From: an uncultured Litoreibacter sp.
Lineage (GTDB): Bacteria > Pseudomonadota > Alphaproteobacteria > Rhodobacterales > Rhodobacteraceae
DNA: 64,000 nucleotides
NCBI GenBank assembly: GCA_947501685.1
Contig: CANMWQ010000001.1
Span: forward strand, 558,001-622,000
Direction of reading: 5' to 3'
A program made the translations under genes and the position numbers. The notes below the pieces were generated by a model. That model did no database searches. It had not been told where the DNA came from and saw nothing but the letters and a program-made list of their open reading frames with translations. Positions 36,576 through 40,646 of this stretch are shown here, in pieces (within the stretch, counting starts at the first letter, position 1; every line of letters starts with the position of its first letter).

Positions 36576-38537
36576 ATGAGCCTGCCACCCGGATTTCTAG
36601 ATGAGCTGAAGAGCCGCACCTCCATCGCTCAGGTGGTCGGGCGAAAGGTGATGTGGGATCAGCGCAAGTCTCAGCCCGGAAAGGGCGACATGTGGGCCCC
36701 ATGCCCGTTCCATCAGGAAAAGTCGGCCTCCTTCCACGTGGATGACAAGAAGGGCTACTATTATTGCTTCGGCTGCCACGCCAAAGGCGACGCGCTCGGG
36801 TTCATCAAAGAGACCGAGAACGTGTCCTTCATGGAGGCTGTTGAGATAATGGCGCGCGAGGCCGGGATGACCATGCCCGCCCGCGATCCCAAGGCGCAGG
36901 AAAAACAGGACCGCCGCACCGAGCTTGTTGGGGTCATGGAACAAGCCGCCCAGTTCTTCAAATTGCAACTCAAGACCAATGCAGGCACCGCCGCGCGCGA
37001 CTACCTCAAGAGCCGCAAGCTGGACGAGGCAGCTGTGGAGCGCTGGGATATCGGTTTCGCGCCTGAAGGCTGGCAAAACCTTTGGGACCATTTGACGGGC
37101 AAGAACGTCAAGGAGGACCTGATCCTCGCAGCCGGTCTGGCCAAAGCGTCCAACAAGGGCAAGAAGCCCTATGACACCTTCCGCAATCGCATCATGTTCC
37201 CGATCCGCGACGCGCGCGGGCGCTGCATTGCCTTTGGTGGCCGGGCGATGGACCCGGCGGACAATGCGAAATATCTCAACTCCCCGGAGACAGAGCTCTT
37301 CGACAAGGGCCGCTCGCTCTACAATCTTGCGCCCGCCCGCGAGGCCACAAGCAAAGAGCAACCGCTGCTGGTCGCCGAGGGTTATATGGACGTCATCGCG
37401 CTCAGCGAGGCGGGCTTTGGCGCCACGGTAGCGCCGCTCGGGACTGCGGTGACCGAAATGCAGTTGCAGATGCTCTGGCGGCTGGCACCGGAGCCGATCA
37501 TCACCCTAGATGGTGACACGGCAGGCCAGCGCGCGGCCATGCGGTTGATCGACCTTGCGCTGCCGCTGATTGGCCCCGGCCAGTCGCTGCGCTTTTGCGT
37601 GATGCCCGAGGGCCAAGACCCCGACGATCTGTTGCGGGCCGAAGGCGCGGGCGCGATGCGCAAGCTGATCGAGAATGCCAAGCCTCTGGTACACCTACTC
37701 TGGCAGCGCGAAACCAATGGCATGGTCCTCGACAGCCCGGAACGCAAGGCGGCGCTGGACCAGTCGCTCCGGCAGGCCTTGGGGAAGATCACCGATGCGG
37801 GGCTGCGCAATCACTATGCGGCAGAGATCAAATACCTGCGCGCCGAACTCTTCGCCGCCCAACGGCCCCAGCGGGAGACAGGCGGGTGGCAGAATAGCAA
37901 CAAGTCCGGCAAGGGACGACGCGACGGCACGTTTGGTGGCAAGGGCGTCGCGGTGCCCTCGACCAAGAACTCCCTGCTGGCGCAAAGCACAGATGTGGAG
38001 GAGCGCGTGCGCGAAGCGGTGATCCTCGCCATCCTGACGCGCCACCCTTTTCTGATCTCTGAATTCCTCTCCGACCTTGAGGTGCTGGACATGCACGGCC
38101 CCGACCACCGGGCTTTGATGCAAGCCCTGCTGCGCCATGAGCGCGAGCATGCGCCTGACATGTTGCGCAATATTTTAGAGGCCGAACTGGGGCCCGTGCC
38201 CCTTGAAAAGCTGTATTCCTTGAGCCATGTGCAAATCACGCCCGCCGTCAGACCAGGGGCGGATGCAGAGCTTACACGTATGACCTTGGCGGAGGAACTC
38301 GCGAAGTTGGAAGCCCGCAGAGGGGTTCAACGCGAAGTCCAAGACGCCGTCGAAGATCTGGAAGGGTTGGCCGATGAAGGGCTGACCTGGAGGGTTGGGC
38401 AGGCGGCCGAGGCGCGCGAAATGGCGAACCGAAAAGGAATGTCGGACGAGAGTGGTGACACAGAGGATCGTGGCGCTATGTCCAACTACTTGCAAAGCCT
38501 CATAGATGGTGAGGTTTGGGTCAAGAAAAGAAAGTAA
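36576..38537 (+). CDS. dnaG: DNA primase
   Basis: This 653-residue primase makes RNA primers at the replication fork. The N-terminal CHC2 zinc finger is visible (CPFH about residue 46, then YYCFGCHAKGD). The core includes NRIMFPIRDARGRCIAFGGR, and the Toprim motif is LVAEGYMDVIALSEAG with LDGDTAGQRAA. A C-terminal helicase-binding region follows. It precedes rpoD as in the widespread dnaG-rpoD arrangement; rpsU is absent. Confidence 0.97.
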   Translation: MSLPPGFLDELKSRTSIAQVVGRKVMWDQRKSQPGKGDMWAPCPFHQEKSASFHVDDKKGYYYCFGCHAKGDALGFIKETENVSFMEAVEIMAREAGMTMPARDPKAQEKQDRRTELVGVMEQAAQFFKLQLKTNAGTAARDYLKSRKLDEAAVERWDIGFAPEGWQNLWDHLTGKNVKEDLILAAGLAKASNKGKKPYDTFRNRIMFPIRDARGRCIAFGGRAMDPADNAKYLNSPETELFDKGRSLYNLAPAREATSKEQPLLVAEGYMDVIALSEAGFGATVAPLGTAVTEMQLQMLWRLAPEPIITLDGDTAGQRAAMRLIDLALPLIGPGQSLRFCVMPEGQDPDDLLRAEGAGAMRKLIENAKPLVHLLWQRETNGMVLDSPERKAALDQSLRQALGKITDAGLRNHYAAEIKYLRAELFAAQRPQRETGGWQNSNKSGKGRRDGTFGGKGVAVPSTKNSLLAQSTDVEERVREAVILAILTRHPFLISEFLSDLEVLDMHGPDHRALMQALLRHEREHAPDMLRNILEAELGPVPLEKLYSLSHVQITPAVRPGADAELTRMTLAEELAKLEARRGVQREVQDAVEDLEGLADEGLTWRVGQAAEAREMANRKGMSDESGDTEDRGAMSNYLQSLIDGEVWVKKRK

Positions 38538-38538
38538 A

Positions 38539-38556
38539 TCGGTTTCCGGAAACCGA
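38539..38556. repeat. Perfect 18-bp palindrome after dnaG
   Basis: TCGGTTTCCGGAAACCGA begins two bases after the dnaG stop. It is perfectly self-complementary and could form a stem in the transcript or be a protein site. No T-run follows. The GANTC cluster begins six bases later. Confidence 0.6.
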
Positions 38557-38559
38557 CGT

Positions 38560-38622
38560 GCGAATCATCACGATTCGCGGTAATGATTCGGAAACGAATC
38601 GATGCGAATCATAAGATGAGTC
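38560..38622. promoter_or_regulatory. Cluster of six GANTC (CcrM) sites upstream of rpoD
   Basis: GANTC pentamers begin at 38562, 38572, 38585, 38596, 38606 and 38618, spaced 10, 13, 11, 10 and 12 bases. Five are in GATTCG/CGAATC hexamers arranged as inverted pairs: GCGAATC (38560-38566) with GATTCGC (38572-38578), and GATTCGGAAACGAATC (38585-38600). GANTC is the target of the alphaproteobacterial cell-cycle methylase CcrM. The cluster is 44 bases upstream of the rpoD start, in its leader or promoter region. Confidence 0.75.
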
Positions 38623-38666
38623 ATTTCGGCGAGCCCGTAGTAACGCCGCGTTAGCAGGAGCACCCC

Positions 38667-40646
38667 ATGGCCCCCAAAGACACAGACGATCAGAAGCAGG
38701 AACGCGAAGACACTGCCGCAGGCCTCGATATGAGCCAGGCTGCGGTCAAGAAGATGATCAACGAGGCGCGGCAACGCGGCTACATCACCTATGATCAGCT
38801 GAACCAAGTGCTTCCACCCGATCAAGTGGCTTCCGAACAGATCGAGGACGTAATGTCGATGCTCTCCGAGATGGGCATCAACATCATCGAGGAAGAAGAG
38901 GCCGAAGACGACGGCACTTCGAAAGAAGTCGCGACCACAAGTCAGGCCAAAGATGTGGTGCTGGCGACCTCCACCACCGAAGCGCTTGACCGCACGGACG
39001 ACCCGGTTCGGATGTACCTGCGCGAAATGGGCTCCGTGGAGCTTCTCAGCCGCGAAGGCGAGATCGCGATTGCCAAACGCATCGAGGCTGGCCGCAAAAC
39101 CATGATCGAAGGGCTGTGCGAAAGCCCGTTGACCTTCCAGGCGATCACCATCTGGCGCGACGAGCTTTTGTCCGAGGACATCTTGCTGCGCGATGTGATT
39201 GATCTGGAAACGACCTTCGGCGACCAACTGGAAGAAGAAGGTGAAGAAGAAAACGTCGTGGCAGCGCCCGGCGCTGAAAAGGCCGATGGCAAAGAGGAGA
39301 CGCAAGAGCTCGATGCCGACGGCAACCCGATCACCACCGATGATGATGACGATGACGACGAGGATGAACAGGCCAACCTGTCGCTCGCCGCGATGGAGGC
39401 CGCGCTGAAGCCGCGCGTGCTGGAAACCCTTGACGTCATTGCCGGGCATTACGAAAAGCTCGCGGAAATGCAGGACCTCCGCATTTCGGCCGCGATCAAT
39501 CATGACGACACGTTCTCGAAGAAAGAAGAGGGCGCGTATCAGAAGCTACGTCAGGAAATCGTCGATCTGGTGAACTCGCTTCACCTGCATAACAACCGGA
39601 TCGAAGCGCTGATCGACCAGCTATACGGCATCAACCGCCGTATCATGTCCATCGACAGCTCCATGGTGAAGCTGGCTGACCAAGCCCGCATCAACCGCCG
39701 CGAGTTTATCGACGAATATCGCGGCTACGAGCTGGACCCCAGCTGGGTCGCCCGCATCACAGAGAAGACAGGTCGCGGCTGGCAGGCATTGATTGAAAAG
39801 TCCCGCGAAAAAGTCGAGGACCTGCGCGCGGAGATGGCTCAGGTCGGTCAGTATGTTGGCGTCGACATCACCGAATTCCGCCGCATCGTGGCACAGGTCC
39901 AGAAGGGCGAAAAAGAAGCCCGTCAGGCCAAGAAAGAGATGGTGGAGGCCAACCTGCGCCTCGTGATCTCCATCGCCAAGAAATACACGAACCGCGGCCT
40001 GCAATTCCTTGATTTGATTCAGGAAGGCAATATCGGCCTGATGAAGGCCGTCGATAAGTTCGAATATCGTCGCGGCTACAAATTCTCGACCTATGCGACA
40101 TGGTGGATCCGTCAGGCCATCACCCGCTCGATTGCCGATCAGGCCCGCACCATCCGCATCCCGGTCCACATGATCGAGACGATCAACAAGCTGGTCCGCA
40201 CTGGCCGCCAGATGCTGCACGAAATTGGCCGCGAGCCTACGCCGGAAGAGCTGGCAGAGAAGCTGCAAATGCCGCTCGAAAAAGTGCGCAAGGTCATGAA
40301 AATCGCCAAGGAGCCGATCTCCCTTGAGACACCAATCGGTGACGAGGAAGACAGCCAGCTGGGCGATTTCATCGAAGACAAGAACGCGGTGCTGCCGCTC
40401 GACAGCGCCATTCAGGAAAACCTGAAAGAGACCACAACCCGCGTGCTGGCTTCGCTCACACCTCGTGAAGAACGTGTGCTGCGGATGCGGTTCGGTATCG
40501 GCATGAACACCGATCATACATTGGAAGAGGTCGGACAGCAGTTCTCAGTGACGCGGGAACGTATCCGGCAGATTGAGGCCAAGGCCCTGCGCAAGCTGAA
40601 ACACCCAAGCCGCTCGCGCAAACTGCGCAGCTTTTTGGACCAGTAG
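38667..40646 (+). CDS. rpoD: Primary sigma factor RpoD (sigma70)
   Basis: This 659-residue housekeeping sigma factor has all regions. Region 1.1 is at the N-terminus ([20 protein letters not shown]). A long acidic non-conserved region includes seven consecutive Asp. Region 2 is [20 protein letters not shown] with [17 protein letters not shown]. Region 4.2 is [20 protein letters not shown]. It lies downstream of dnaG and is closed by a strong terminator. Confidence 0.98.

Follow-up and report, generated by a model that had tools for sequence, protein, structure and literature searches.

A conserved cluster of GANTC sites before rpoD in Rhodobacteraceae, a candidate control region for GcrA/CcrM-dependent transcription

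Among the closest described counterparts of the locus reported here is the ctrA P1 promoter of Caulobacter, in which, according to the accessible part of the cited paper, a GANTC site lies at -28/-29 of the transcription start (PMC4287350). Binding of GcrA to this promoter rises with methylation: in the text available, unmethylated DNA gives no footprint, DNA hemimethylated on the plus strand gives one of about 12 nt, and the region from -35 to -10 is covered when the DNA is fully methylated (PMC3667746). An extended motif for activation by Caulobacter GcrA (TGATTCG/YGAKTCK) has been described, and Brevundimonas GcrA is stated in the same source, as far as it was accessible, to have no preference for the extended motif except a slight one for C (PMC7987155). 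Other CcrM-methylated GANTC promoters, those of mipZ and ftsZ, belong to essential division genes in the passages available (PMC8116508, PMC3667746), whereas rpoD is a sigma factor gene. For Rhodobacterales, Tomasch and colleagues noted few GANTC sites before ctrA and suggested from this gene that methylation might not be of major importance in the order (PMC8116508, accessible part). GANTC depletion together with intergenic enrichment has been described across CcrM-bearing alphaproteobacteria, with the authors' caution, in the text available, that other factors may contribute (PMC3973325).

Cell-cycle control of rpoD has a precedent, because the rpoD promoter of Brucella abortus, also an alphaproteobacterium, is bound by the cell-cycle regulator CtrA; regulator and motif are different there, and a GANTC cluster is not mentioned in the accessible part of that paper (PMC2877005). 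In the literature on GcrA, CcrM and GANTC in connection with rpoD, searched mostly among papers outside subscription, we found no report of control of rpoD by GcrA or CcrM in the text accessible. The word "rpoD" is absent from the main text of seven papers (PMC7987155, PMC9836097, PMC8116508, PMC6473078, PMC3667746, PMC3973325 and PMC6813329), and the available portions of four others (PMC4287350, PMC2877005, PMC4414408 and PMC5928217) do not report control of rpoD by GcrA/CcrM.

The window analyzed is a stretch of 64,000 nucleotides from an uncultured Litoreibacter sp. (contig CANMWQ010000001.1), and its coordinates are used below. On the plus strand, dnaG (36576 to 38537, 653 aa, stop codon at 38535-38537) is followed by a gap of 129 bp (38538 to 38666) and by rpoD, the housekeeping sigma factor gene (38667 to 40646, 659 aa, ATG at 38667), which was matched in all 61 family genomes searched. 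A first-pass annotation of this DNA had placed six GANTC pentamers in front of rpoD, and their starts at 38562, 38572, 38585, 38596, 38606 and 38618 were reproduced exactly, all between the dnaG stop and the rpoD ATG. Site 1 is CGAATCA at 38561-38567 (TGATTCG on the minus strand, with GANTC at 38562-38566) and corresponds to the conserved forward site; site 2 is GATTC at 38572-38576 on the plus strand, within CGATTCG, which fits YGAKTCK; and site 3, TGATTCG at 38584-38590 on the plus strand, is the anchor site of the family alignment described below. Site 4 (GAATC at 38596-38600, within CGAATCG) fits YGAKTCK on the minus strand, site 5 was found by the motif scan as CGAATCA at 38605-38611 on the minus strand, and site 6 (GAGTC at 38618-38622, plus strand), which is flanked by T and A, falls outside YGAKTCK. 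Five of the six sites are in GATTCG/CGAATC hexamers, and inverted pairs are present, as had been annotated. Directly 3' of the dnaG stop, an 18-bp perfect palindrome, TCGGTTTCCGGAAACCGA, occupies window positions 38539-38556; it is broken in several near relatives and is terminator-like solely on the minus strand.

The earlier claim that this density exceeds chance was borne out, and the rarity had even been understated because GANTC is depleted in the genome: the window contains 50 sites against 278 expected from dinucleotide shuffles, and 275 sites were counted in 457 kb (0.60 per kb; 20 chosen stretches plus the window, 14% of the genome). In these 457 kb the place before rpoD was alone in having at least three GANTC in 61 bp, so that no equally dense cluster was met elsewhere in the sample. 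By a Poisson calculation, such a cluster is expected less than 1e-6 times in the genome at the sampled GANTC density and 0.03 times at the density given by base composition alone. TGATTCG has 40 copies in the 3.32-Mb genome, three of them in the upstream region of rpoD; since none of the 40 places falls in the 20 sampled stretches, they were examined separately, and GANTC triplets within 61 bp were found for two genes, upstream of mraZ (L090) and, for pheS (L099), at its 5' end. In the whole genome, two TGATTCG within 100 bp occur, besides rpoD, solely upstream of mraZ.

For comparison with relatives, the best 80 of 206 related stretches in a dnaG similarity search were kept as loci; they include Litoreibacter, Ruegeria, Octadecabacter and Leisingera, and some are close species. 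Four of these loci end before rpoD, and with our own locus added 77 were readable (76 relatives and our own). In all 77, the stretch from 130 to 20 nt upstream of rpoD holds three to seven GANTC sites. The 111-nt upstream regions hold 299 GANTC sites in total (35.0 per kb) against 1.10 per kb elsewhere in the same loci, a 32-fold enrichment, and the sequence around the sites is variable among relatives while the sites themselves stand out.

Because these loci are in part closely related, a second set was drawn evenly from the family. It consists of 51 rpoD regions (our own included) from 51 of 62 family genomes (61 plus G215), 20 of which were hand-picked to take in the most divergent members, so that the set leans toward divergent genomes. 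TGATTCG was found at most 150 nt before rpoD in 45 of the 51, each of another genus; three GANTC were found within the same distance in 41, and 42 have a GANTC triplet in 61 bp when the 300 nt before rpoD are considered. Among genomes of other alphaproteobacterial families, represented by the best-matching 28 of 112 and belonging to as many families, TGATTCG before rpoD was found in 0 of 28, and 24 of the 28 have no GANTC within 150 nt. The distances are counted from rpoD start codons estimated by alignment, and in one outgroup locus (L141) the true start is not reached; in L159, the two sites are 184 and 198 nt upstream of the start so estimated. Four CcrM-bearing members (G017, G511, G459 and G194), which fall close to the outgroup rows in the rpoD tree, lack TGATTCG in the 300 nt before rpoD, and three other genomes of this tree group (G054, G083 and G479) have one copy in the 200 nt before the gene. 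Conservation upstream of rpoD, for which the first-pass annotation had asked, was thus found in 77 of 77 loci and in 45 of 51 genomes of the broader set, and the site cluster is a family trait in the genomes sampled.

CcrM itself requires no more than GANTC. In the 77 loci, exact TGATTCG/CGAATCA was found at 242 of the 299 sites upstream of rpoD against 38 of 564 outside, and 286 of the 299 fit YGAKTCK against 164 of 564 outside, so that the extended motif is shared with the GcrA-activated promoters of Caulobacter. The array differs from those promoters in having multiple sites with preferred spacings of 21 and 13-14 bp, and from Caulobacter ctrA P1 in having several sites instead of one named site and a sigma-70 gene as its target. 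The switch proposed earlier had been worded as methylation-sensitive or as depending on a methyl-reader. Because the sites carry GcrA-type flanks, a methyl-reader switch is favored over bare CcrM sites; it would act on rpoD through a candidate promoter. Any dependence of the switch on methylation is tentative, since the canonical cluster is kept in one genome without CcrM (G314).

The commonest distances between sites in the 77 loci are 21, 14, 35 and 13 bp, independently of any anchor rule. For an anchored alignment, five divergent family loci and the duplicate of our own were removed; the full alignment span was present in 117 of 122, of which 111 are distinct. The anchor was TGANTC, with a bonus for GANTC 13-14 or 21-23 bp upstream, so that the columns and partly the spacings are fixed by construction. 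With this rule favoring some spacings, 70 of 111 distinct sequences have GAATC 21 bp upstream of the anchor TGATTCG, and 18 have GATTC 13 bp upstream of it, as a direct repeat; GAATC 13-15 bp after the anchor was found in 55 (the sum over three distances). Upstream of the anchor, the alignment shows a GCTAWT-like box immediately adjacent to it and an A-rich stretch at a distance of 41-46 nt. The helical phasing that had been annotated is present loosely in our own sequence (R 0.68 at 10.5 bp, a value reached by 2% of random step sets). In the family as a whole it is weak, with R 0.23 for a period of 10.5 bp and R 0.42 for one of 11.0 bp over 275 distances, and it was rejected as the organizing rule for this reason.

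A scan of the region found no consensus sigma-70 promoter. From partial column conservation we infer a candidate -10-like hexamer, GGTAAT at 38579-38584 on the plus strand, for which the tendency in the family is GCTAWT. If this box served as -10, transcription would start near 38591-38593, and site 1 would lie near -30, close to the position of the GANTC site in Caulobacter ctrA P1, with site 3 at the 3' edge of this -10 box and site 4 near +5.

The proteins needed for such control are encoded in the genome. A family-model search found GcrA in 197 of 198 family genomes, including all 174 rated good, with imperfect specificity, since the model also matches one archaeal control. The GcrA of our genome aligns with the solved chains of Caulobacter GcrA, with 37 of 45 residues identical in the DNA-binding domain, and its CcrM has N6_N4_Mtase and RAMA domains. 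In the same genome TGATTCG is found upstream of gcrA (at 111 nt) and of ccrM (at 73 nt), in two copies upstream of mraZ, in front of a gene for a response regulator, and within several genes. At least two GANTC within 200 nt upstream of ccrM were found in 29 of 30 genomes (our own included), and TGATTCG in 9 of 30; the corresponding numbers before gcrA are 4 of 21 and 3 of 21 (our own again included), and autoregulation of gcrA as a family feature was rejected on this last number. Upstream of mraZ (30 of 41 genomes), TGATTCG was found within 700 nt in 13 and a GANTC triplet in 61 bp in 9, and mraZ was rejected as an equal target since rpoD has 42 of 51 on the same density test. In many relatives (L090 2023-2052 and L298-L327), GANTC sites lie about 535-605 nt before the aligned start of mraZ, which is at the head of the division-gene cluster. 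In most relatives read (L195-L224), the region roughly 50-150 nt upstream of where ccrM starts in the alignment shows a second conserved layout, consisting of TTGAC, then GAATC/GATTC, and then GACTC/GAATC 11 bp further.

Natural loss of CcrM provides a comparison within the family. A CcrM-like match at 1e-20 was found in 386 of 395 family genomes and was absent from nine, and G497 and G102 have a weak match only. Ten genomes were treated as CcrM-less (G014, G494, G029, G497, G059, G513, G109, G314, G321 and G333); in none of them was there a RAMA match above the cut-off, with one in G513 just below it. GcrA matches are kept in all ten, and the copy in G109 has an in-frame stop. G102 (1488 CGAATCA copies, weak CcrM match, no rpoD match) was excluded from both sides of the motif-count comparison. 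Without correction for base composition, CGAATCA has 35-230 copies per genome in 13 CcrM-bearing genomes against 262-953 in the ten CcrM-less ones, the lowest of which has 75 per Mb, also uncorrected. One per-Mb comparison used nine of the 13 CcrM-bearing genomes, without G017, G054, G511 and G459; these four have 30-59 per Mb, which is above the other nine and below 75. Single loci vary in GANTC per kb. Because of the higher CGAATCA counts in the CcrM-less genomes, the data suggest that the loss of CcrM is real and old enough to have relaxed the depletion of the motif.

At least two TGATTCG within 200 nt of rpoD were found in 47 of 59 CcrM-bearing genomes against 2 of 10 CcrM-less ones (Fisher p 0.0005, or 0.01 with three same-genus pairs merged, other relatedness being uncorrected). 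The 59 include 11 CcrM-bearing genomes picked for low CcrM scores, of which 5 pass by TGATTCG and 8 by GANTC density; without them the number is 42 of 48. When the 300 nt before rpoD were scanned for a pair of GANTC in 61 bp, 55 of 59 CcrM-bearing genomes had one, against 4 of 10 CcrM-less ones (G109, G314, G321 and G494). G333, which is CcrM-less, groups with the cluster-bearing G064 on the rpoD tree (support 96/79) and has one GANTC left. A clean co-loss with CcrM, perfect with three CcrM-less genomes, was broken by the larger set: G314, with no CcrM at 1e-20, no RAMA match and 432 CGAATCA copies, has the complete canonical cluster, and part of the cluster persists in G109. Because these two keep sites, and because the rpoD tree has weak inner support with CcrM-less genomes partly on long branches, the co-loss test is favorable but not decisive for dependence of the sites on CcrM.

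Several other explanations of the cluster have to be weighed against these data. The motif could be bound by another regulator that is independent of methylation, or by GcrA acting free of methylation, the overlap with CcrM sites being incidental; a fixed asymmetric 7-mer indeed exceeds what CcrM needs, and this account, though unlikely, retains some probability mainly because of G314, where the cluster is kept although the motif is no longer rare (G109 keeps part of it). It is weakened by the identity of the 7-mer with the published GcrA motif, as given in the accessible text (PMC7987155), by the presence of the same 7-mer before ccrM and gcrA in this genome, and by the eight of ten CcrM-less genomes that have fewer than two copies before rpoD. 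Methylation might also act on polymerase or another protein directly at the -10, without GcrA, as the abutment of the anchor site on the -10-like GCTAWT box would allow; the GcrA-type flanks and the sites distant from the -10 are left unexplained, and we regard this as improbable. Chance, or shared descent without function, is strongly disfavored: some of the 77 loci are close, non-independent species, but the 32-fold enrichment, the fixed motif amid variable flanks, the occurrence in 45 of 51 family genomes of different genera, and the expectation of less than 1e-6 such clusters in our genome at the sampled GANTC density speak against it.

The inverted pairs also raise an RNA reading, in which the functional element would be a terminator or hairpins, formed in the tail of dnaG or in the leader of rpoD, and GANTC a by-product of palindromes. 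The RNA folds somewhat better than shuffles (z -1.46, with 12 of 200 shuffles equal or better), and two outer pairs are slightly over-complementary (0.61 against 0.50 and 0.54 against 0.45 expected), but across 70 distinct sequences none of the nine neighboring pairs tested departs from expectation by more than 0.11. Orientation varies in the family, 18 of 111 sequences having GATTC at -13 as a direct repeat, and a hairpin or attenuator was rejected since there is little complementarity beyond the 7-mers and the inverted orientation is not conserved. An Rfam search of the region gave no match. No intrinsic terminator, as a GC stem followed by a T run, was found on the plus strand, and a dnaG terminator was likewise rejected, the lone candidate being on the minus strand over the palindrome (38538-38557). 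With pairing near expectation, variable orientation and a blank Rfam search, the region is probably not an RNA element, and we give this account very little weight.

The cluster marks a genuine regulatory region, conserved and characteristic of a single family, and, judged from its sequence features, it is likely to be the control region of a multi-site GcrA/CcrM-dependent promoter of rpoD. Points against this assignment are the full cluster in G314, the partial one in G109, the four CcrM-bearing genomes without TGATTCG (G017, G511, G459 and G194), the pass by TGATTCG of just 5 of the 11 genomes with low CcrM scores, the low share of ccrM and gcrA upstream regions with TGATTCG, the near lack of an extended-motif preference in Brevundimonas GcrA, and the scan that gave no consensus promoter. 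Most likely, it represents a known mechanism at an unexpected, central target, with an array of sites instead of one or few. CcrM would methylate the adenines of the array, and GcrA, a cofactor of sigma-70, would bind methylated or hemimethylated sites and raise initiation by sigma-70 polymerase, or block it once every site is occupied. A passing replication fork would leave the sites hemimethylated and thereby shift rpoD output, and several sites over one promoter could give a graded or switch-like response. This would close a loop, in which the supply of sigma-70 is governed by its own methylation-reading cofactor.

A broader proposal, which we put forward tentatively and hold to be possible but somewhat doubtful, is that a main output of CcrM/GcrA in Rhodobacteraceae has moved from ctrA to rpoD, with a multi-site methylation counter and a GcrA loop on sigma-70. 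Such a counter at the sigma-70 promoter would make the supply of sigma-70 follow replication; in a variant, GcrA would cover and hold down the fully methylated promoter, and fork passage would release one pulse of sigma-70 per round. The site pattern suggests that the family may tie the supply of its main transcription factor to DNA replication, and the replication-linked methylation sites of Rhodobacterales may sit at rpoD instead of ctrA. Should GcrA govern the gene of the sigma factor with which it works, the influence of the cell cycle would extend beyond a regulon to the overall capacity for transcription. The prediction is sharp, as it concerns a few adenines in about 60 bp, and naturally CcrM-less species provide a built-in control. 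Rhodobacteraceae comprise many marine species that can be cultured and modified in the laboratory.

Two further observations were made on sequences collected in this study. In G059 (L328, 865-5580) and G513 (L329), two species of one genus whose genomes have no CcrM match, RpoD is in an intact frame of 1572 residues, counted from the first ATG, against 659 in our genome, and the two versions are 93% identical. The C-terminal third is closest to ordinary RpoD, and the N-terminal part has weaker sigma-70-like stretches and three Sigma70_ner matches, as if the protein were a tandem fusion of sigma copies. One locus, L060 (JAHBAN010000154.1), is titled Flavobacteriia (unverified organism), and it has a Rhodobacteraceae-like dnaG, and its contig shares assembly name and length with that of L059; it is probably a mislabelled bin.
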